Below are positions 3-27,800 of a stretch of DNA of 28,195 nucleotides, in pieces. Within the stretch, counting starts at the first letter, position 1, and every line of letters begins with the position of its first letter. Below the pieces are notes generated by a model that did not search any database, was not told the origin of the DNA, and saw only the letters and a list, made by a program, of their open reading frames with translations. The position numbers and the translations under genes were made by a program. Source of the DNA: a virus; the IMG/VR virus record IMGVR_UViG_3300032053_000400, positions 1 to 28,195 of that record; one strand, given 5' to 3'.

Positions 3-707
3 GATTATACTATTGGGTTTTCGCCAAGCAGTTATGGCGTTTGGATCGACAATTGGGTTGGAATTTTAAACGGTTTTCGAATAGAGGCAAGCTTTAATTT
101 CGTAGTTTTACATACGGACGTGCCAGCTCTAAATACTGATGGCTATTATCATCTGGGAGATGATCCAGGATTTAATTATAGCCAAGTCGAAATATATAAT
201 ATAAATAAATTACTTAAAACTTTAAAAGCCAGATTAAATTCTTCCGGCAAATCTAAAAGCACCGATAGTTTTGGAAATATTACATATGTAGATTGTAGTA
301 TGTTTTCGGTAGAAATGTTAGTAACATTTTTAGCTAATGCAATAACATTATTTAATGAAATTCCCCATTTTACATTTTTTACATTTGCTGATTCATCCTT
401 TGTTGCTCAATTTCACGATGTATTAGTTGAGGGCGCTACATTGGCAGCATTATCAAGTCAAGCGTTGCTCGAACGCGGCGCCGAATATAGTATTTCTGAT
501 AATGGAATTAGCTTTACTCCTCCAACAATGAGCGAGTTGTTAAATACACAATATACGACTTTACTAACTCATCATTATGAGAAGGTGAAGTTTATAAAGA
601 ATAGCTTTAAGCCACACCCGATCGGTATGGGCTCGTTCTCGATGTCGGGTTCCAACAACCCCTCGTTCAGGCGCTTGCGTATGCTTCGACAGAGACAAAT
701 TATTTGA
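3..707 (+). CDS. Phage virion/baseplate-type protein, 5' truncated
   Basis: The reading frame is open from the left edge to the TGA at 705-707, so this is the last 234 residues of a longer protein. The GTG at 120 has no ribosome binding site and the frame is open upstream of it, so it is probably internal. I do not recognise a catalytic domain. The C-terminus is Gly/Ser-rich followed by an Arg-rich end (NPSFRRLRMLRQRQII), which I associate loosely with phage structural proteins. It contains one DGY tripeptide, as do several structural proteins downstream. The last roughly 30 codons (about 605-695) are clearly richer in G and C than the AT-rich body, suggesting a recombination junction next to the accessory pair. 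The structural role is inferred from context only. Confidence 0.6.
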   Translation, partial: DYTIGFSPSSYGVWIDNWVGILNGFRIEASFNFVVLHTDVPALNTDGYYHLGDDPGFNYSQVEIYNINKLLKTLKARLNSSGKSKSTDSFGNITYVDCSMFSVEMLVTFLANAITLFNEIPHFTFFTFADSSFVAQFHDVLVEGATLAALSSQALLERGAEYSISDNGISFTPPTMSELLNTQYTTLLTHHYEKVKFIKNSFKPHPIGMGSFSMSGSNNPSFRRLRMLRQRQII

Positions 708-805
708 CAATCTGCGTATTATCAGAAATTGCTAACTTTCTTTACAAAGATGCCACCATCTACTTACCTAGAAAACATAATATTATCAAACACCTATTAA
801 AATAG

Positions 806-831
806 CACTTTTTTCGCATCTTCTTGCAATG
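806..831 (+). promoter_or_regulatory. Shared SD-less leader motif, copy 1
   Basis: The bases running into the ATG at 829 contain a T6 run, then CGCAT, then a pyrimidine-rich TCTTCTTGC stretch. Aligned without gaps to 2828-2853 upstream of the metallopeptidase gene, 21 of 26 positions match including the ATG, and all five differences are transitions. No purine-rich Shine-Dalgarno is present, unlike the sheath, tube and tape-measure genes. It may be a promoter with a leaderless or near-leaderless start, or a translational signal. I saw no third copy in the window. Confidence 0.5.
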
Positions 832-2781
832 TTTGTTTCAAGGCTTTATAAATTATTTACATTATCTACTGTAATTGATAAGGCTAATTTATATTTAAAA
901 ATTTGTAATGCAATTTCTAAAGAAAAAGCGTTGCACAAATTTCCAGAATTTGCAAAAGAAATAGAATTGTTTATAAGTCAAGACCCATCCAGTTCTAAAA
1001 AATATTTAGAATGGCAATTAAATATACTTAAATCCCAACCGGCGCTCGCTCCAGAAATTGCCGATGTTACCAATTTATTTCATAAATATCATCCATTTTT
1101 AGAAAATAAAGAATTAAATAGTTATCAGCCACAAGATTTTACCGAATTATCTGAAAAGCTACAGACTATTAAAGAAGAGCGGGAAGCAAAAAAACAAAAA
1201 AGAAAAACATATAATATAGACCCCGCAAAAGTTGCCTGCGGTCATAAAATTGTTTATACAAGTCCTGGTGAAAATCCAAAATATGAAGTATTATTAATTA
1301 CCAATAAAGATGCCTCAATGCATTTTGGCAAAGATAGTAGGTGGTGTATTCGCCGCGGCGATAAATCATTTTTTGAAGATTATGATGCAAATAATGTTGT
1401 ATTTTTCTTTATTTTTAATAAACATTTGCCAAAAACAGATAAATTTGCACAAATCGCTTTATCATATCAAAGAGATGCACAAAATAATATTTTAGAGCTT
1501 CAATGTTGGGATGCATTTGATACTCAAATGGTCGCGGCTGATGTAGAACAAGAGCTTGACGATAATGAAATTCATTCCATAATAAATTTAACAGAGTCTA
1601 TAGCTCAAGCGCAACCTAAATCCTTATTAGCTAAAATAGATTCTGGAGAAGTGCCAGAAGAAGAGCTTTATAAGTTATATTTAAAAGAAAATAATCCAGA
1701 AACTAAAACACACTTACTTGGAGCATTAATGCTGCAAAGTAAAAATCCAGATCTGTTAAGAAAATTATATAATGAAACAGAAGAACATTATTATTTATTA
1801 TCTAATAAATATTTGCCATTAGATTTAGTTGAGGATGGGTTAGGCGATGAAGATTATAATGCAAGACAAGTTGCCCTTGAAAATCCAAATATAACTATGG
1901 AACTATTGTTGCGGAATATGGATAAACCAGAGATAAAATCTGTAATATCTAATCGAACAGATGCTCCGCTGCCAGTAATATATGAGCTTGCAAAAGAAAG
2001 AAAATATTGGACTAATTTAATAAATAACCCAATTACTCCATCAGAGATATTAGTGCTAATATCCAATGATGGACATTTTAGTGCCTCTGATGGCGTTCAA
2101 AGCGCTGTGCTTGAACACCCTAATCTTACATTAGAATTAGCATATAAGTTTATTGATCGCGGCAACGCATTAAAAAGAATTGAAGATTTAGCGGGTAAAA
2201 ACTATACGTTATTTGTAGGGGATTTGAAGAATTATAGATTACCAATATATAAAGCAGAAAAAATGTTAATGTCTAATACATTAGATGATGTTGAAAAACA
2301 TTATTTAAGAAAATATATTGCGAGCAAATCTGCTAATGAAACTATATTATCAGAACTATTAGCTTTAAAAGATAGTGATTTTATCACTAAAGAAGATAAA
2401 AGCAATCTCCGATTAGCTATGTGTCACAATAAATATTTACCATTAACAATATTAGAAGCTTTAGCTTACGATAAGGATATTAATCCTGGCAATATTGCTT
2501 TAAATCCAAATATTACAACTGATATTATTAAAATATTATTAGATCGTGAAGATTTTTCCCCTTCAACGTTTGCCACATTAGTTGCAAATCAAAAATTATC
2601 ACCTGATGCATTGCGTTTAGTTGCAAATCAATGGCTACAATACAATGATGATGACTTTAAGGGCATATTGCATATGATTGCTATACATCCCAATACACCC
2701 GCAGATGTGTTAAAAAAACTTATACAATCCAATATGTCAGATCCTGCCAAAGAATATGCACAAAATCGTATAATAAAATAA
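829..2781 (+). CDS. WC-motif phage protein with LRV-like repeats
   Basis: This 650-residue, AT-rich gene begins with an alpha-helical region of about 135 residues including a Lys/Glu-rich stretch (about 110-130). Residues about 145-235 resemble a domain scattered through phage proteins: a G-x-x-(T/S)-x-W-C core (here W172-C173) followed by an aromatic/Tyr segment and beta strands. From about 320 to 650 it carries imperfect helical repeats around the motif N-P-N-(I/L/T)-(T/P), for example ENPNITMELL, EHPNLTLELA, LNPNITTDII and IHPNTPADVL. This pattern is like leucine-rich-repeat-variant (LRV) solenoids, which usually bind other macromolecules. No catalytic residues are obvious. It begins at an SD-less ATG with the same leader as the next gene and is probably a nonstructural accessory gene inserted among tail genes. 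Function unknown. Confidence 0.75.
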   Translation: MFVSRLYKLFTLSTVIDKANLYLKICNAISKEKALHKFPEFAKEIELFISQDPSSSKKYLEWQLNILKSQPALAPEIADVTNLFHKYHPFLENKELNSYQPQDFTELSEKLQTIKEEREAKKQKRKTYNIDPAKVACGHKIVYTSPGENPKYEVLLITNKDASMHFGKDSRWCIRRGDKSFFEDYDANNVVFFFIFNKHLPKTDKFAQIALSYQRDAQNNILELQCWDAFDTQMVAADVEQELDDNEIHSIINLTESIAQAQPKSLLAKIDSGEVPEEELYKLYLKENNPETKTHLLGALMLQSKNPDLLRKLYNETEEHYYLLSNKYLPLDLVEDGLGDEDYNARQVALENPNITMELLLRNMDKPEIKSVISNRTDAPLPVIYELAKERKYWTNLINNPITPSEILVLISNDGHFSASDGVQSAVLEHPNLTLELAYKFIDRGNALKRIEDLAGKNYTLFVGDLKNYRLPIYKAEKMLMSNTLDDVEKHYLRKYIASKSANETILSELLALKDSDFITKEDKSNLRLAMCHNKYLPLTILEALAYDKDINPGNIALNPNITTDIIKILLDREDFSPSTFATLVANQKLSPDALRLVANQWLQYNDDDFKGILHMIAIHPNTPADVLKKLIQSNMSDPAKEYAQNRIIK

Positions 2782-2827
2782 TGCAACAAGGTTTGAACGT
2801 AATTGAGTGACTTTAACTTGTAAGTAT

Positions 2828-2853
2828 CATTTTTTTCGCATTTTCCTATAATG
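2828..2853 (+). promoter_or_regulatory. Shared SD-less leader motif, copy 2
   Basis: Second copy of the element at 806-831, ending on the ATG at 2851. It has a T7 run, CGCAT, a pyrimidine stretch, then CCTATAATG. The TATAAT could be read as a -10 hexamer, but it touches the start codon, so a conventional promoter for this start would not fit. Copy 1 has TTGCAATG at the same place and so lacks the hexamer. The conserved part is the T-run plus CGCAT plus pyrimidines. Confidence 0.5.
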
Positions 2854-3348
2854 CCCTCTTTAGACCATATGCAGAAAATTTCTCCCCAAATACTTCTGAA
2901 ACTCATTCAGAAAAGTAAGGATTTCCTTAAACAAAATAAGGTGATGCAAGAGGTTTGTCATAAATATGACTTTGATATAGAAGATTTAGATTTAATTCCC
3001 GTTAAATTTGATGATATTGATGTAAGCGCTAAAACCGATAAAGGTATCATAACGCTAAATGTTAGTTTATTAGAGCTAGATAATATACACGAAATACCTG
3101 GCTATTTATGTCACGAGATGACCCATCACATTCAGCAATCTAATAAACCTACACAATCCGCTGATGACGGAGATTATTTAAGCAATCCTTCGGAACAAGA
3201 AGCATTTCAATTCCAAATCAAATATATCGATGAACAGTTTGGCGAAGATAAAGCAGAAGATTATGTAGATCAAGTATTAGATCATCACGAAGAAACTGGT
3301 AAAGAGAGAGCAAAGAAGCAAGATATATTAATGAATAAGGTAGAGTAA
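2851..3348 (+). CDS. Small HExxH metallopeptidase-like protein
   Basis: A 165-residue protein with a helical N-terminus (1-45), a short beta region (about 50-75), then a zinc-protease signature: H88-E89-M90-T91-H92 inside the context LCHEMTHHIQ. A downstream acidic helix (NPSEQEAFQFQ) offers E117, or possibly E115, as a third zinc ligand, the gluzincin-like arrangement HExxH...E. No signal peptide or membrane segment is seen, so it would act in the cytoplasm or be packaged. It starts at an SD-less ATG with the leader shared with the preceding gene, and its TAA directly abuts the ATG of the next gene. It could be a prohead/virion processing protease or a host-directed protease; its small size and pairing with the LRV-type gene favour an accessory role. 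The fold assignment is by motif only. Confidence 0.7.
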   Translation: MPSLDHMQKISPQILLKLIQKSKDFLKQNKVMQEVCHKYDFDIEDLDLIPVKFDDIDVSAKTDKGIITLNVSLLELDNIHEIPGYLCHEMTHHIQQSNKPTQSADDGDYLSNPSEQEAFQFQIKYIDEQFGEDKAEDYVDQVLDHHEETGKERAKKQDILMNKVE

Positions 3349-5358
3349 ATGCCCTATTACTTAAATCCCAAGAATTCTGGCATTTCACTTGTTACCGCCA
3401 AAGGCGATGGTGACATTATTACTTTAAAATGGAATAGGGCTTTTCCTACTACTCCTGCTAATCTAATAGCTTATAATATTTATATGGATGAAGTGCGTCC
3501 AGATTTTGAATTTTTATTTTTTAATAAAAGTCCGGTCTTCGTTTCAACTAATGGCGCATTGACCGCAGACATTGCTGATCTTACGCCCGGACAAATGTAT
3601 CGTTTTGCTGTTCGAGCTGTAGAATACGATCCTGCTGTTTTTGATTTACGCACGCTCCCAGCCGTATTTAATAATCTGCGAGTATATCCTGAAAGCCCAT
3701 TGCGCGCCAATATGACAACGGTATCTGCAGTGGTGCCGCTATTAAGCATAGATGACTTCCCTCTTGCCGGAGTAGTCCGCGTAGGAGCGGAACTCATCCA
3801 ATATAATGCGGTTGATATTATTAATAATAATCTCGCTATAGTGGGAGCTGGCACTTCTGGCAATGCATATTTAATTGATCAGGTTCCGCCCACAGATGCT
3901 TATTATAAAGCAGCATCAACAAATGTTGGTGATGGTTATATACGCAATCTATCATTAGTTGATACGCAAGCGCCCGCCGAAACTTGGACCATTAAATGTA
4001 TCTTTACAGATGGATATTATGGAATTGGTAATACTTTTATAAAGACTGCACAATTTGAAGCTTTTGGCTCTATTTCCGGTAATTTACGAGACGGGTATGG
4101 AGAGCCATTTGTATGGAATGATGTTAATCAAATCCTTTCAAATAATATTTTGAGCTTTTCCATTGATGGCTATGCGGTAGGCGGAGGGTATGTTCCCTTT
4201 GCTTTGGGAGATTACTTTACTATTCAGGTTGGCGCAGTAACCACCGGATCCAATATCGGCAGAGGGTTTAATAATACGGACATAACTATTCATAATACTG
4301 ACGGTTATGATGGGTATGTATATTGGGATCCAACCGTATTATTTTTTCCTGTTGATAGTGAAGAGCAAAATACAATTGTATTTGCAACGCAAGATCGTTT
4401 TGATAAAGGCAATTATGCATTTACAGTAAATGACGGTTATCGTCAAAATACTAAAGATATTGTAAATGCAGATTTAAGCGTTAGCGATACAACAAATGCT
4501 AATTTTCCAGTTTATGATTATGTGGGATACCATCGTATCGATCCCGTTGCACTATTTAATGGCGAGTGTGTAGGTAGCTATTTCGGCGGACAATTATATT
4601 GTGCAGATGGCTATAGTGGCGTCGGGCGCCAAATTCGCGGCATCTCGGTTGATGATCGTAATACACAACGACAGGAAGTATTATTGTCGGTAATAGGGGA
4701 GTCCGTTTGTTTAGTAAAAAGACAATGGACCGGCATTCGTTGTTATTGTGTGCTTTCAACCAGCGAACATCCAGATGCAAGATGTAAAAAATGTTATGGA
4801 ACTGGATATGTTAGCGGATATCAGCAATATTTTGATTCACGACATTCAGATGGTAAGATACGCATTAAGTTTGAACCCTGGGTCGATGATCTTCCCTTAA
4901 CAGATAGCGGTTTAGAAGTAGAGGCGACAAAGCCGTCTGCCTGGACACTTGTATTACCAGCTTTAAAAAAGAGAGACTTTATTGTTAGGTTCGATCAAGA
5001 TGGCAATGAAGAATATCGTTATGAAATTCTTAATATAACAAGAAATATTTTATTTAATCAACAGTTTGGCGCTCAAAAGATGGCTTTGCAACGTATTAGA
5101 AAAACAGACATCATATATATGACACCTGTATTCCGAGATACTAGTGCTATGCCAACTACTATACAAACAAGCATAGTATCCTCTGCCGGAATTCTTCCAC
5201 ATAGTCACTCATTGGTAAAAAATGAAAAGCATCCTATGTTTTGGCAACAGCTAACATCTACTAGTGCTGGACATAATCATACTGTGCGTTGGAACGCAAC
5301 GACCGGCTTTTTAGAAGTTAGCGTAGAGCTTGGGCATACACATATTTTGACTTATTAA
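3349..5358 (+). CDS. Baseplate/tail protein with FN3, Cys4 and HxH motifs
   Basis: A 669-residue virion protein. Residues about 5-100 read as a fibronectin type III domain (TLKWNRAFP, then LTPGQMYRFAVRAV). Residues about 175-300 form a module homologous to part of the sheath protein downstream (shared AYLIDQ, NVGDGY, ETWT.KC, AFGSISG, GDYFT.QV). A likely zinc site follows: C465-Y-C467 and C479-K-K-C482 in the CxxCYGTGY form. The extreme C-terminus has three HxH pairs (H618/H620, H642/H644, H663/H665), an arrangement associated with metal-stabilised tips of phage spikes and short fibres. DGY occurs eight times. The start abuts the previous stop, with AAGGTAG as ribosome binding site. A baseplate-peripheral role is the best inference; exact position unknown. 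Confidence 0.75.
   Translation: MPYYLNPKNSGISLVTAKGDGDIITLKWNRAFPTTPANLIAYNIYMDEVRPDFEFLFFNKSPVFVSTNGALTADIADLTPGQMYRFAVRAVEYDPAVFDLRTLPAVFNNLRVYPESPLRANMTTVSAVVPLLSIDDFPLAGVVRVGAELIQYNAVDIINNNLAIVGAGTSGNAYLIDQVPPTDAYYKAASTNVGDGYIRNLSLVDTQAPAETWTIKCIFTDGYYGIGNTFIKTAQFEAFGSISGNLRDGYGEPFVWNDVNQILSNNILSFSIDGYAVGGGYVPFALGDYFTIQVGAVTTGSNIGRGFNNTDITIHNTDGYDGYVYWDPTVLFFPVDSEEQNTIVFATQDRFDKGNYAFTVNDGYRQNTKDIVNADLSVSDTTNANFPVYDYVGYHRIDPVALFNGECVGSYFGGQLYCADGYSGVGRQIRGISVDDRNTQRQEVLLSVIGESVCLVKRQWTGIRCYCVLSTSEHPDARCKKCYGTGYVSGYQQYFDSRHSDGKIRIKFEPWVDDLPLTDSGLEVEATKPSAWTLVLPALKKRDFIVRFDQDGNEEYRYEILNITRNILFNQQFGAQKMALQRIRKTDIIYMTPVFRDTSAMPTTIQTSIVSSAGILPHSHSLVKNEKHPMFWQQLTSTSAGHNHTVRWNATTGFLEVSVELGHTHILTY
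3871..4248 (+). repeat. Module shared with the tail sheath, copy in FN3 protein
   Basis: Codons about 175-300 of the FN3 protein align with codons about 125-250 of the sheath. The matches come in the same order: AYLIDQ, NVGDGY, AP.ETWT.KC, TA.F.AFGSISG, a Trp, N.IL.F.I, and GDYFT.QV. The DNA has diverged enough that this is a protein-level repeat rather than a recent copy. Confidence 0.65.
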
Positions 5359-5396
5359 TAGGCTATTATCACATAATAATAGATTTTGGATCTTAA

Positions 5397-7919
5397 ATGG
5401 TAAATCAACTTTTTACAGACGGATATGGGCGACTTGCTTTAGACAGATACGCGTTCCAGCGTCATCTTGCGGGATTTGATCCATCATTTAATACTCGGCA
5501 TAAAGCCGGTCACGTTGATTTAGACCCCGCATTAAATATCAATGATACTGACGTATATAATGTTCAAGATGCTTTAGCAGCGACGAGCACCGAATTAAAT
5601 ATACTTGAATTATCCGGCAAGGGTTTTATCACTATAGGTGATGGCTATGATACATATCATTTTTCTAATTATGCAGATCCGGCATATGTAAGTGATGCAC
5701 CAGATCCGGCTTATGATTCTTCCGTTCCTGCACTTAATACATATTTAGACAATTTACTCAATATTATTGATCATACTCTTCCCGGTTATAATCCATTAAA
5801 CGCCCGCATCAGAGACGGCGGCATTGTGCTCATTAAAGCTGGCACGTATAAATTTACCGGAACAGTCAATATACCTGCCGGTATAATTTTAATGGGCGAA
5901 AATTATGGCACAAAAATAGTCAATCAAATGGCTAGTCCAGCACCATTATTTAAAAGCATAGCCCCTCTCAATAGAATTCCTGACATTGGTGTTGACGTAT
6001 TAAATACATTTATGTTTAATAGAGATTCAGCATTAGTTAATCTTACTATCGCTGATAATTTTCTTGTTCCTAAATTTACAGGAGATCCTTCCTATCTAAC
6101 TCCGATTAATAATGATTCTATTATGCCGTTAGTTAGCGTTGAAGGAGGATCTAGTCTTATATGTGAAAATGTAAAATTTATTGGTAAAACTACTTATACT
6201 GGACCTTCCGTTACCGATCTTGTAGATGTTACATCTTTTGCCATTAAACTTAATAATCCTGTTACAACTGGCACGTATTTAAAAGTTAATAATTGTTTTA
6301 TGGATGGATTTGCCCAACCTATTTCATTTGATTCGACTGGCGGAAGAAATGACTATTTAGAAGTAACTAATTCTAAAATTAGATCTCACGGTTATTTGGG
6401 AGCCGCTCCCGCGGCAACCGACCCTGCAACAATGTTTGGCGACAACTTTATACATTCTTGGGACAGCTACGACGGGACGACATGGACGGATAGCGTCGGT
6501 GAGCTGAACGGGACCATGTGGGGCGGCGTTGGTCTTCCTGGGGTGGCGACGCAGAACGGGCACACGCATCCTGTCTTCGTGGACGCCAACAACGACCAGC
6601 TTGCTACAGTGCCCGACGATATGCTTGGTGGACTGACATCGTGGACAATCTACTTCGCATACAAAGGATCGAATTTCTACAACGGCATCATTACCAAGCC
6701 GCTCTGTTTCTTCGTGGAGCCAACAGGTGGATTTGTAACCACCAAGTTCGCTTACTACAACTTCTCGGGTGGGACCGACTTGCTCACAACAACGGTCATC
6801 AACGACAATGCGTGGCATCGAGGCATCATCACGGTAAACGGTAACGCGGGACAATTCTATGTCGACGGCGCGCTGGAGGCGAGCGGAGTGGTCTCGACGA
6901 TGCCGAGCGACCCGTCTCAGGGCGTATTCCTGGGCGGTGCTCCGAGCCCGTTCGGGTCATGCGACGGCTCAATAGCAATTATTGGAGTGGCTGTCACCGG
7001 ACTATCTGGACCTGAAGTCACTGAGCTTGACACATATCTTGATCAATATATTAATGGCATAGTGGCTCCAGCGGGAGAAGAAGCTAATTGTGTCATTCAT
7101 ATGAATGATAATAATGCTCTGATTAGTAATAATGAATTTTATGGTAATCACGACGGATTAACTACGATTTGTTATATTAAAGATAAAATTGTCGCGCCGG
7201 CAGCCCAAGATAAATCACACATTATTATTAGCTCTAATATATTTACTGTCGGCAAAGGCGGGTCAGTTGTTCAAGGAAATCCATTTGTAATAGATGCTGG
7301 TATAATTGGAACATTTAGCTCTAATGCATTTACTATATATGATGGAAATCTAACTGGAAGTGGATACGTAGTAGGTGCAAATGGAGTTATAGCGCTACAA
7401 GCAGATACAGGGTTCGGTTTAGTTGCTAATGGAGATTTTGCTTTTGGTAACAGTATTGTTGAGGTTGCCGAGAATAACATATCGATCGAATCAACAGCCG
7501 GAAGCTATAGTTTACTTACTGCTCAAGATGTAAATATAACGGCAACAAACGATATAATGATAGAATCATCTACCGCTAGAATTACATTAAATGCGGGAAT
7601 AGCAACAACTAAAATTGCAAATGTAACAGCATCAACGTATGCGATAACTGCTGCCAATTATATTTTATTAGTAGCAACAAGCACTATAGCCGCTATTTGT
7701 AATATAACTTTACCTACCCCAACTACAGGGACCCGTATTATTATTAAAGATAAACAAGGTTTAGCCGGAACTTATAATATAATCTTACACCCAAATGTAG
7801 CTGAATTAATAGATGGTGTTACTGGCTCTTTTGGGACGCCATCAAATGGGATAATACTTTCTGCAAATTGGGGAACATGGGAATTTGTTTCTGATGGTAC
7901 CAATTGGTTTAAACTATAA
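5397..7919 (+). CDS. Beta-helix tail spike/fibre with LamG-like insert
   Basis: An 840-residue adhesin-like virion protein. The N-terminus (1-60) resembles phage attachment segments (DGYGRLALDRYAFQRHL). From about 138 a pectate-lyase-like right-handed beta-helix begins (GGIVLIKAGTYKF, then PAGIILMGENYGT) and continues through N-rich rungs to about 335. Residues about 338-560 form a separate lectin-like domain of the LamG/concanavalin type (WTIYFAYKG, then AWHRGIITVNGNAGQFYVDG). The helix then resumes (NDNNALISNNEFYG). The last roughly 130 residues form a C-terminal domain common in phage fibres (ITLPTPTTGTRIIIKDKQG to the terminal WFKL). The lectin domain DNA is distinctly GC-rich. Likely a receptor- or glycan-binding spike. 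The start is the ATG at 5397 with a weak GGAT ribosome binding site. Confidence 0.8.
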   Translation: MVNQLFTDGYGRLALDRYAFQRHLAGFDPSFNTRHKAGHVDLDPALNINDTDVYNVQDALAATSTELNILELSGKGFITIGDGYDTYHFSNYADPAYVSDAPDPAYDSSVPALNTYLDNLLNIIDHTLPGYNPLNARIRDGGIVLIKAGTYKFTGTVNIPAGIILMGENYGTKIVNQMASPAPLFKSIAPLNRIPDIGVDVLNTFMFNRDSALVNLTIADNFLVPKFTGDPSYLTPINNDSIMPLVSVEGGSSLICENVKFIGKTTYTGPSVTDLVDVTSFAIKLNNPVTTGTYLKVNNCFMDGFAQPISFDSTGGRNDYLEVTNSKIRSHGYLGAAPAATDPATMFGDNFIHSWDSYDGTTWTDSVGELNGTMWGGVGLPGVATQNGHTHPVFVDANNDQLATVPDDMLGGLTSWTIYFAYKGSNFYNGIITKPLCFFVEPTGGFVTTKFAYYNFSGGTDLLTTTVINDNAWHRGIITVNGNAGQFYVDGALEASGVVSTMPSDPSQGVFLGGAPSPFGSCDGSIAIIGVAVTGLSGPEVTELDTYLDQYINGIVAPAGEEANCVIHMNDNNALISNNEFYGNHDGLTTICYIKDKIVAPAAQDKSHIIISSNIFTVGKGGSVVQGNPFVIDAGIIGTFSSNAFTIYDGNLTGSGYVVGANGVIALQADTGFGLVANGDFAFGNSIVEVAENNISIESTAGSYSLLTAQDVNITATNDIMIESSTARITLNAGIATTKIANVTASTYAITAANYILLVATSTIAAICNITLPTPTTGTRIIIKDKQGLAGTYNIILHPNVAELIDGVTGSFGTPSNGIILSANWGTWEFVSDGTNWFKL
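6400..7000 (+). other. GC-rich LamG-like domain insert within spike gene
   Basis: Within an otherwise AT-rich gene, codon third positions switch to G/C at about 6400 and return to AT-rich by about 7000-7080. The segment encodes the lectin-like domain and interrupts the beta-helix between N-rich rungs. Its edges are Ala/Pro-rich linkers (GAAPAATDPA and IVAPAGEEA). This looks like a horizontally acquired domain; boundaries are approximate. Confidence 0.65.
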
Positions 7920-20819: not shown

Positions 20820-20866
20820 AATACCTCGCATCATTTGATATATACATTAAATGATTGCGAGGTATT
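20820..20866 (+). promoter_or_regulatory. Hairpin burying the chaperone ribosome binding site
   Basis: AATACCTCGCA (20820-20830) pairs with TGCGAGGTATT (20856-20866), extended by TCATTT (20831-20836) with AAATGA (20849-20854). There is a single bulged T at 20855 and a 12-base loop. The right arm contains GAGG (20859-20862), the Shine-Dalgarno of the ATG at 20868. The folded RNA would hide this site and lower chaperone translation relative to tube. It starts nine bases after the tube stop and could also act as a transcript 3' barrier. Confidence 0.75.
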
Positions 20867-24004: not shown

Positions 24005-24838
24005 ATGGCAACTGATTTATTAGGTAGTATAACTGAAGTATTAGGCACCGCGGGCACAGCTACTCGTTCTTTTGAGGAGGATGGCTTTACCGTGCCACCT
24101 ATGTCATCAGCTAGCGGCGACGGCTTGCCGTCCAGCAAAGTTAAAGCTCAACAAAAAGCTACTACTCATAGACATATTGTGCATTGGTTTATTCCAGAAG
24201 TTGGAATTATTAATATGTATATCAATCCGCAATCTATTCAGTATAATTTTAAGAAATTAATTACACCAGAAAGAACTAAAGGCGGTTATGTTATTCAGTA
24301 TTGGGGCGAAGAGTTAGCCACTTTGAATTTACGAGGACATACGGGCAGTTCAGGTGTGGAGGGGCTAAATGTGCTTTATGAAATTTATAGAGCAGAGCAA
24401 TTTAATTTCGATCCCATTGCTCTAACAATGGCTTCTGACAGTTTAGTTTCTGGATTAGGAGATACCATCGATAGTTTAGGAAAAGGTATTTCTGGATTAG
24501 GTGGGGATATTTTTTCTGGCGTAGCTGGCGGCATATTAGGAACGGATCCCAAGACGCAAAGCTTATTACCCCGTAACCCGCCAACGTTGGCAGCTATGGC
24601 ATTTGGTGTAGAGATGTATTATAATGGTAAGGTATATCGTGGATTTTTTACAAGTATGTCTTATACCGAATCGGTAGATAAATTAGGTTTATTTGATTAT
24701 GATATTCAATTTACAGTAACCCAACAGAGAGGATATAGAACTAATAGTTATGGTTGGCAAAGAAGTGCAAATTCCGGACCTTCTAATAATTCAGAAGGGG
24801 GAGTGCCGCTTTCCTTTGGTAAAGGATTTCGTAGATGA
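24005..24838 (+). CDS. Baseplate/tail tube-initiator protein
   Basis: A 277-residue protein directly after the tape measure, with ribosome binding site AAGGACTT. The N-terminal 50 residues look disordered. A beta domain follows (HRHIVHWFIPEVGIINMYIN, PQSIQYNFKKLITPERTKGG, WGEELATLNLRGHTGSSG). A Gly-rich hydrophobic loop at about 150-180 is followed by more beta structure (MAFGVEMYYNGKVYRGFFTS, FDYDIQFTVTQQRGY). The pattern resembles proteins found between tape measure and hub in contractile-tail phages, often joining the tube to the hub. The Gly-rich loop might insert in a membrane, but it is short and amphipathic. Specific T4 equivalent uncertain. Confidence 0.65.
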   Translation: MATDLLGSITEVLGTAGTATRSFEEDGFTVPPMSSASGDGLPSSKVKAQQKATTHRHIVHWFIPEVGIINMYINPQSIQYNFKKLITPERTKGGYVIQYWGEELATLNLRGHTGSSGVEGLNVLYEIYRAEQFNFDPIALTMASDSLVSGLGDTIDSLGKGISGLGGDIFSGVAGGILGTDPKTQSLLPRNPPTLAAMAFGVEMYYNGKVYRGFFTSMSYTESVDKLGLFDYDIQFTVTQQRGYRTNSYGWQRSANSGPSNNSEGGVPLSFGKGFRR

Positions 24839-24883
24839 TATATAATAACGTACGCCGAATAAGACATAATAGAGTAACAAATA

Positions 24884-27800
24884 ATGAGTGATTTTTTTAA
24901 TGGTCTTGGAGATGTACTTGCGCAACAATTTAGTTTAGGTGATTCTAAGCTTAAGTCATTGGATGTTGTAAAAAATGGGCATACCGTTCCTTACGGAAAA
25001 CTCGGCGCATTCGCAAATCAATTTGATCAATCAGCTGAAAGATCTTATACCGAAGAAGGTTTTCAAAGAACGTCTCTTTTTAATCCTCGACAAAAGCAAC
25101 TGGAAATTTGGATGCAAGAACCTGAGGTAACTATTCTTGTTAAAAAGCGAGCCTTCGCCTCATTGGCAGATAATACTCGTATCGATTTGGCAGACGATCA
25201 AGAAAGATTATTTTTACGTGCTACTAAATTTTTATTTCAAAATAAATGTAAGCAAATTGCTGCTTATGAAAGATTAACCAAATTAGAAAGTGTTGCTATT
25301 GAGATGGGATCGCTCGATCACCATCTAATGCCGGCATTATTTGCCGCCACAGATACATTGGGTTCGTTATTTTCTGGCTCCAGTTCTTTTAATAAATTTA
25401 AAGCCGTTATTGATCAAGTAAAAACCATTACTAATTTGTCTCGCGATACTTTAATCACTAATTGGACTACTAATCAATTAAATTCTTTTAGAACTGATTT
25501 GGGTACAGGTACTGGTGTTATAGAATTTACCACAGCATTTAACATTAGCACCACCACTTCTATTAATTTTGGAGGGGGTTCTTTTAATATTACTTTCGTC
25601 GATCCCTATCAGCTGATGAGGGTAACGCATAATGATATTGAACAAGCAATAGCTGATGCTACAAATACGGTAAAAGGAAGTTCTTTCGTACAATTAAGTT
25701 TAGATATTGTAAATAAAGGTATCCAAGACGATAAGGCTGCTCTTAATAAAATGAGAGCGCGACGTAATGCTAACCCAATTAATTTTATTATTGAACCAGA
25801 TACTTTTCTTGGAAAACGCATTAGAGCCATTATTGATAATAGTGGAATTGAAATTCAATTTACTGGTTCTATTTTTAATGTAAATATAGATCCGGCATAT
25901 TTTCGAGGCGCAGAATTGGCAGGCGCAGATGGTATAGATCCAAACTCATATGGTCGCGCAGCTTCTCTATTGGGTGTTGCCGCCCTTACTCTTTTAAATC
26001 CGGCAGCCACTATTATTGATCCTTCTGGTGTCGCAGAATCCGTTTCTATTCAACCAAATAGTGAGGCTGCACTATTTAATAGAATTGTAAAAAGTGCCTT
26101 TAATCAATTACAAATAAATAAAAATTCTCAAACAGTTATGAAGGCACATAACGCCAAGACCAATGATATAAGAAAAAAACTACGCCTACATTATGGCACT
26201 AAATTAATTATCCAGCCAATGGATGTGGTGCATATATTTGTTAGTTCCAAAACTAAAGTTGATAATAAGATTATTGGCGGTTTGCAAGATGCAATGGGTG
26301 GCGGATTTTTGCAAACTGCAAGTAAAGCTTTTGCAAATATGCAAGATTTTTTTCACGCAGGACAAAATGATTCCGTAGAAAAATCACTATCTGTGGGTAG
26401 AGATTTTCCAAATTGGTTGTGGCTAATCATGCGCAATCAATTTACCAAAGATAAAAGCGGTACGCAGATCTTTGCCGGATTAGTCGCTAATAGCACCTCC
26501 TCTTATGATAGTAATGGGGCTTTTAATGTTGCCATTACAGGCACTGATAATGCGGCATATTTTAAATTTGGAGTTGTAAATCAACGACCAGCAACGGATG
26601 TTTTTGACGGCTCCCTATATGATCCATTAACCCCATTTGATATTAAATTTGATAGAGCTAATGGATTTGAGCCAGATAAGGTGCCAGATTTATTACCAGA
26701 AAATAAAGCATTATTTAAGTCTGTATTTCTTAAATATGCTAGTGGGCGATATGTTGGTAAAAAACCCACCATAAATAATTTTGTACAAGATTCTGAAAGA
26801 ATTCAAAACGCTTCCATTAGAAAGGTATTTTATGATCCAAATGGAATGGTGTATAAATGGAAAGAGGGTATTGGCTCATTGGTAATGTTTGGAAATACTG
26901 CCCAAGAAAGCGCCACTAATACTAGTCTTGCCACTACCACGACAGATCCTTTTGCGGGGCAGGATATTATGAATGTCTTGTCATTATTAATTACTGGAGA
27001 GCCATATAATTTTGCAACTTTTTATAAAGCAACTATACAAGTTGATAATACGGGGCGAGATCCTCATACCGGAGCTGATCCAGCCGTTTCCTTTTTTAGA
27101 AGTTTTCAAACAGATCTAAAATATAGAAATTTATTATATGGTAATTTCGTTCCATTTAAAAAATTAACAATGGATAATGATACATATAAAAATGTTCTTA
27201 ATAATCAAATCAATGCCACCGCTTTTGATGCCGAACTTAAATTTTTATTGCAAGAAAAAGCCGATTTAAATGATAAACTAACTTTTGCAAGTGATAATGG
27301 GCAAGTAGTAAATGCAACTTCGGCAATACTACAGGCTCAAGCAACAGTTCTTAATGATAAAATTACTATCAAGCAACAACAAATTACTACAGAACTAACA
27401 AAAGCTAATAAGCCCATCTCTATTGTTGGTGATGATATTACTATGGATTATGATTTATTTTTTGAAGGTAAAGATCAAAATAAATTAAGTGATATTTATC
27501 AAAGAAATAAAGATTTAAGAAAAAAGACACATTATTTAACACGCAGAATGTCTTGGAAAGTAAGAGCCAATCAGGATGTAAATTTATTCATCGTTGATGA
27601 TTCGTATGATAAAGATTATGATATTCAGGCTTTTGAAAAAGCATTTTCTAATCCCAGTTTATTTAAAAGCGATTATATTACAGTTGCTGAGAAAATTGAG
27701 CATGTTGCTAAATTATTAGAGTTAGAAGTCTTTGCCGACTCACAAGGACATATTCAAATTAGACCACCACAATATAATAAAATGCCAAGTAGCACATTTT

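Follow-up and report, generated by a model that had tools for sequence, protein, structure and literature searches.

A conserved leader without a Shine-Dalgarno site ahead of a jumbo-phage peptidase gene and its probable copy before an inserted neighbour

Two short repeat copies that each end on a start codon in a viral contig are probably best understood as the conserved, Shine-Dalgarno (SD)-less start signal of a gene for a minimal zinc peptidase (MP), copied once ahead of the inserted gene ARM and serving as a dedicated start site. The window, i.e., the whole stretch of 28,195 nt that was analysed, carries both genes downstream of a third, gene A (Table 1). According to the proposed scenario, the leader would originally have belonged to MP in the tail-gene region of a jumbo-phage family, ARM would have arrived between gene A and MP, bringing a second leader copy with it, and each leader, as the gene context supports, may allow its own gene to be expressed alone and uncoupled from the gene upstream.

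Table 1 Features of the window and, in the last row, of two related loci
Feature	Coordinates	Strand	Remarks
Gene A, conserved upstream neighbour of MP	3..707	+	5′ end lost at contig end
LAGLIDADG homing-endonuclease gene remnant, 3′ end (peptide ending in EIANFLYKDATIYLPRKHNIIKHLLK, then stop)	708..805	+	Complete counterpart at same place in L004
Leader copy 1, ends on ARM ATG	806..831	+	Distant-MP PWM score 5.9 at d7
ARM, 650-aa protein	829..2781	+	Leucine-rich-repeat-variant-like solenoid; C-terminal model, weak LRV match
Spacer, ARM stop to MP leader	2782..2827	+	No recognised feature
Leader copy 2 (MP leader), presumed ancestral copy	2828..2853	+	Conserved ahead of MP orthologues
MP, 165-aa minimal zinc peptidase	2851..3348	+	HExxH and downstream Glu; downstream of gene A in relatives
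2H phosphoesterase genes	L190:1817-2434; L232:4941-5558	-	Divergent from MP

The repeat and its counterparts ahead of MP orthologues

The two copies, CACTTTTTTCGCATCTTCTTGCAATG at 806-831 and CATTTTTTTCGCATTTTCCTATAATG at 2828-2853, are identical at 21 of 26 positions with no gap, their five differences (808/2830, 820/2842, 824/2846, 826/2848 and 827/2849) are all transitions, and the ATG of ARM (829) or MP (2851) forms the 3′ end of each, which on recomparison confirms the description given in a first-pass annotation of this DNA. Its statement that neither ARM nor MP is preceded by an SD site, while AAGGA is present before the sheath, tube and tape-measure genes, was also confirmed. SD-less starts as such are not exceptional in these phages, and about half of the predicted starts (103 of 219) of a 200-kb relative, G014, lack a 4-base SD core. 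Neither window copy has significant RNA structure or an intrinsic terminator (a GC stem followed by a T run), and no pair of sigma-70 -35/-10 hexamers is conserved among the copies; TATAAT occurs at the ATG in the MP copies only, without a matching -35, and the sigma-70-like total of the region (22) is about that of shuffles (16.5, sd 4.6).

In AT-rich DNA, a repeat of this length and identity is unremarkable in itself: about 60 similar families occur in the window, and no third copy was found in the 28,195-nt record at three or fewer mismatches, shuffles likewise giving 0. The frequent occurrence within the window of ungapped repeats that are about 30 nt long and 75% identical would favour a chance similarity of AT-rich leaders, yet this explanation is contradicted by the recurrence of the element at MP orthologues, by its constraint relative to fourfold-degenerate sites and by an independent test with a position weight matrix (PWM), and we regard it as extremely improbable. 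The repeat stands above chance because of its position at start codons and its recurrence ahead of MP orthologues elsewhere; in G014, only 2 of 23,871 leader pairs reach 18/23.

Constraint was gauged against the homologous leader of MP in contig L003. Over the 22 bases preceding the MP ATG, the window and L003 agree at 20 positions, versus 35-42% identity at the fourfold-degenerate sites of A and MP, where the proteins are 91% (gene A) and 77% (MP) identical. The binomial probability of 20/22 is 2e-6 against 0.42 and 0.003 against 0.62, the value for all synonymous third positions. By these comparisons, constraint on the MP copy itself is clear. The first-pass annotation was right that the signal is real and lacks an SD site, and the signal is also constrained (20/22 versus 35-42%), but a phage-wide promoter class is not supported: in the large relatives, the motif has a single start-associated copy, at MP.

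Profile searches with MP and A yielded 35 MP loci and 80 A loci, and in 16 of the MP leaders ATATGACTATTTNNNCATA or a close variant of it occurs, almost free of gaps and at a nearly fixed distance from the ATG. The leader takes the form (T)ATGACTATTTNNNCATA a few bases 5′ of the ATG in this wider family and ACTTTTTTCGCAT(T/C)TTC in the clade of the window; the most conserved bases of the wider family (ATATGACTATTT) are not a pure U-run and extend about 30 nt upstream. A PWM trained on these 16 distant leaders, none of them from the window clade, scored the L003 MP leader at 13.1, the window ARM copy at 5.9 and the window MP copy at 5.7, all at d7, where most training leaders lie at d4-5. The matrix thus recognises both window copies, at a distance from the ATG similar to that of its training leaders. 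Among 1234 ORF leaders of four genomes, only three score as high as the window copies, and all three are MP training leaders. The bridge from T6-CGCAT to ATGACTATTT leans mainly on L003 and on position, because the MP leader of the nearest large relative, G014, scores just 0.5, a value that 12 of the 1234 leaders match or exceed. In placement, the copy at 2828-2853 precedes an MP orthologue as expected of the family; the only exception encountered is the copy at 806-831, which stands ahead of ARM.

Two other candidate functions of the wider-family leader were rejected. An RNA hairpin (TATGACT..AGTCATA) has nearly invariant outer pairs, and its three inner pairs form in only 9 of the 16 leaders; no Rfam family matched the leader. 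An upstream mini-ORF (ATG ACT ATT TAA) occurs in only some leaders and is missing from the window clade.

Gene layout and insertion history

Two further occurrences of the leader emerged from a motif scan of viral contigs. In L003, the leader and MP come immediately after gene A, and ARM is absent. L004, a close relative, has an ARM that is 92% identical to that of the window and is preceded by an identical leader, and between gene A and this leader lies a complete LAGLIDADG gene, of which the window keeps only the tail (708-805), leader copy 1 starting immediately 3′ of the TAG of the remnant (803-805). In G014, the gene A stop and the MP ATG are separated only by TTACTTTTTTTGCATTCTTGTG, a homologous leader that is two bases shorter. 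Related jumbo phages generally have MP near the same upstream gene, A, and most lack ARM: it was not found in 15 larger relatives, a repeat search of seven records recovered it only in L004, which served as the positive control, and it is known only from the window and L004. Because of these three layouts and the absence of ARM from relatives, MP with its leader is taken as the old arrangement and ARM with its leader copy as an insertion, and we infer that ARM entered together with the second copy. Of the two genes that the first-pass annotation called accessory, ARM would then be so, whereas MP accompanies gene A in relatives.

The same layout could be read as a by-product of the insertion, in which the repeat is merely the duplicated border of ARM, perhaps from repair of an endonuclease cut between A and MP, and has no regulatory meaning for ARM. 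A direct repeat does flank ARM, a LAGLIDADG gene, complete in L004 and reduced to a remnant in the window, does lie between A and copy 1, and several GIY-YIG and LAGLIDADG genes are present in the region. We nevertheless consider this origin rather unlikely: the MP copy is independently constrained, the two window copies fit the distant PWM equally well, and the ARM copy retains the exact junction with the ATG, which a passive border need not. A homing-endonuclease target site was also rejected as the reason for conservation, since the leader is conserved without an endonuclease and stays with MP even when MP has parted from A.

Homing-endonuclease genes of the LAGLIDADG and GIY-YIG types are dense here (708-805 in the window, L004:1780-2793, and L003:2465-3301 and 4903-5673). 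Although its protein is conserved, gene A varies strongly in its last codons among L004, L003 and the window, a pattern that co-conversion would leave. A ATATCAAGCACTTAC-like sequence recurs just after the gene A stop in L217, L222, L227, L254, L266 and L273, in some loci followed by AGTTGACGC..TTGTCG; Rfam gave no match for it in L222, L227, L254, L266 or L273.

Gene specificity and expression

Searching relatives for more copies at start codons, as the first-pass annotation had proposed, turned up nothing convincing besides MP in the large relatives. In scans of relatives at three or fewer mismatches and a core-only scan, as in a pattern scan of 13 large genomes and a PWM scan of four, MP gave the only convincing start-associated copy; before start codons in G014, G020, G024, G028 and the other large genomes scanned, the element occurs only at MP, once in each. 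A loose pattern scan of viral contigs returned unrelated matches, with an ATG nearby in 6 of 80 and none of these opening an ORF longer than 17 aa. The sole other start-adjacent near-copy in G014 is CCTTTTTTTGCATTTATATG (G014:198162-198179), three mismatches from the motif and directly before a 121-aa ORF.

The k-mers enriched ahead of transcription-unit starts are instead GATATA-like. In four genomes, 6/6, 5/6, 2/3 and 8/18 occurrences of TGATATATA fall within 45 nt of an ORF start, against an expected 4-6%, and this is probably the general promoter motif of the jumbo-phage family. Its only sites in the window, 20836-20844 and 24836-24844, stand shortly before two genes, an ORF listed from 20835 that likely starts at a downstream ATG and an ORF at 24884, and its core is absent ahead of ARM and MP. 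The MP leader differs from TGATATATA and is not a phage-wide promoter class. A genome-wide class of phage promoters that make leaderless mRNAs, suggested by an element directly before start codons without SD and by the short late promoter consensuses known from giant phages that have RNA polymerases of their own, such as AACA-6N-TA/G in AR9 (PMC5312081), is accordingly very unlikely and already largely refuted: multiple copies before unrelated genes were not found, the start-associated element being confined to MP in the large genomes scanned, it is TGATATATA that is enriched ahead of many starts, and the 5′UTRs of AR9, reported to be 26-491 nt long (PMC5312081), mean that leaderless late mRNAs are no general rule.

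Gene order also bears on function. MP in relatives often stands back-to-back with an opposite-strand gene, 28-78 nt apart; in L190 and L232, this gene encodes a 2H phosphoesterase, at 36 and 78 nt. In a leave-one-out analysis, the motif was present in 14 of 23 divergent contexts versus none of the 9 in which MP overlaps or abuts an upstream stop, with a Fisher p of 0.002 that is optimistic because the phages are related and the motif cut (5 bits) was set by eye. The divergent partners are mostly 2H phosphoesterases and also include other genes, with the MP motif and its spacing unchanged. Because the motif tracks divergent contexts and not abutting or overlapping ones, the signal appears to go with independent expression, and the leader looks like a signal for it. 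The first-pass annotation had suggested an independently expressed cassette in a late operon; the back-to-back position of MP in the tail-gene region of relatives agrees with independent expression. Two points bear on a promoter role: an upstream antisense gene does not prove a promoter, because read-through is possible, and MP of the window clade need not own one, because it follows gene A in tandem there. Divergence of a 2H phosphoesterase (2′-5′ RNA ligase superfamily, with weak Acb1 likeness) from MP was seen in many jumbo phages.

The leader might alternatively act in translation only, as a U-rich, SD-free ribosome entry site of the ribosomal protein S1 type within a late mRNA and with no promoter role. 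It has the two attributes of such a site, the absence of SD from every leader form and a U-rich run, which precedes the ATG at nearly fixed spacing; the window copies have no significant structure, about half of the G014 starts lack an SD core, and many bacteria are known to initiate translation without SD sites (PMC5397173). The conserved ATATGACTATTT, however, is not a pure U-run and reaches about 30 nt upstream, and specificity for one gene together with the tracking of divergent order fits transcription better, so that we judge a purely translational role doubtful. The dedicated start site favoured here would most likely take the form of a promoter with the transcript start very near the ATG, with translation proceeding without SD pairing through the U-rich, weakly structured leader, and the leader common to ARM and MP would give the two genes the same expression, as a functional pair.

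The peptidase, its solenoid neighbour and known systems

MP has the HExxH motif and a downstream Glu, with H88, E89, H92 and E115 invariant in 33 sequences, and its structural model is confident (mean pLDDT 91). No relative of MP was found in cellular genomes. In the AlphaFold model of ARM, confidence is confined to residues from about 270 to 650, the C-terminal part, which forms an alpha-solenoid; the N-terminal part has a pLDDT below 50, with no recognised domain in the N-terminal half. The match of ARM to Pfam LRV (14.7 bits) is below the gathering cut-off of 21.6, and it resembles the LRV repeats of a protein in L280, a similarity that repeat composition may inflate, so that ARM can be called a leucine-rich repeat variant solenoid by likeness only. 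Named phages matched neither ARM nor MP, and no defence-system model matched either.

ARM and MP are unrelated by sequence, as the first-pass annotation had it in arguing that coding constraint does not account for the repeat, but a functional link is suggested by fusions of peptidase and solenoid in both orders: L280:4157-6811 encodes an 884-aa MP-PcfJ-LRV protein and L202:23-2998 a 991-aa LRV-MP protein of opposite order. The link runs via other solenoid-repeat proteins, ARM itself being nowhere seen fused to MP. Because of these fusions, we propose that ARM and MP are probably functional partners under one signal. More tentatively, the leader may be an undescribed, gene-specific cis signal across jumbo phages for SD-independent peptidase expression, copied to a solenoid partner and thereby setting a two-gene peptidase/recognition module apart from the surrounding structural genes, which we consider possible rather than likely.

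What was an isolated repeat can now be treated as a testable signal, of which uncultivated jumbo phages provide dozens of natural variants. It points to a module of peptidase and solenoid whose parts are joined in one protein in some phages and, in the present phage, are encoded separately, each with the same signal; located among tail genes, this module nevertheless seems to follow expression rules of its own. A further yield is TGATATATA, the probable general promoter motif of a poorly known phage family.

MP shares HExxH and the downstream Glu with minimal metallopeptidases (jannalysin/selecase, SprT/SPRTN-like), and minimal metallopeptidases and SPRTN-type proteases are among the top weak PDB matches of its model, with none at a Foldseek E≤0.001 and no Pfam match above cut-off. 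The late promoters of AR9-type giant phages resemble the MP leader as short phage-specific signals upstream of genes; those of AR9 serve many genes, with 94 start sites carrying the motif (PMC5312081), whereas one gene per genome carries the leader. The family motif TGATATATA is likewise promoter-like and close to start codons, but it precedes many genes (20836 and 24836 in the window) and the MP leader is gene-specific. With non-SD U-rich leaders, finally, the MP leader has in common the absence of SD and a pyrimidine-rich stretch ahead of the ATG, and it differs from them in being conserved as a specific sequence at nearly fixed spacing rather than as a base composition.
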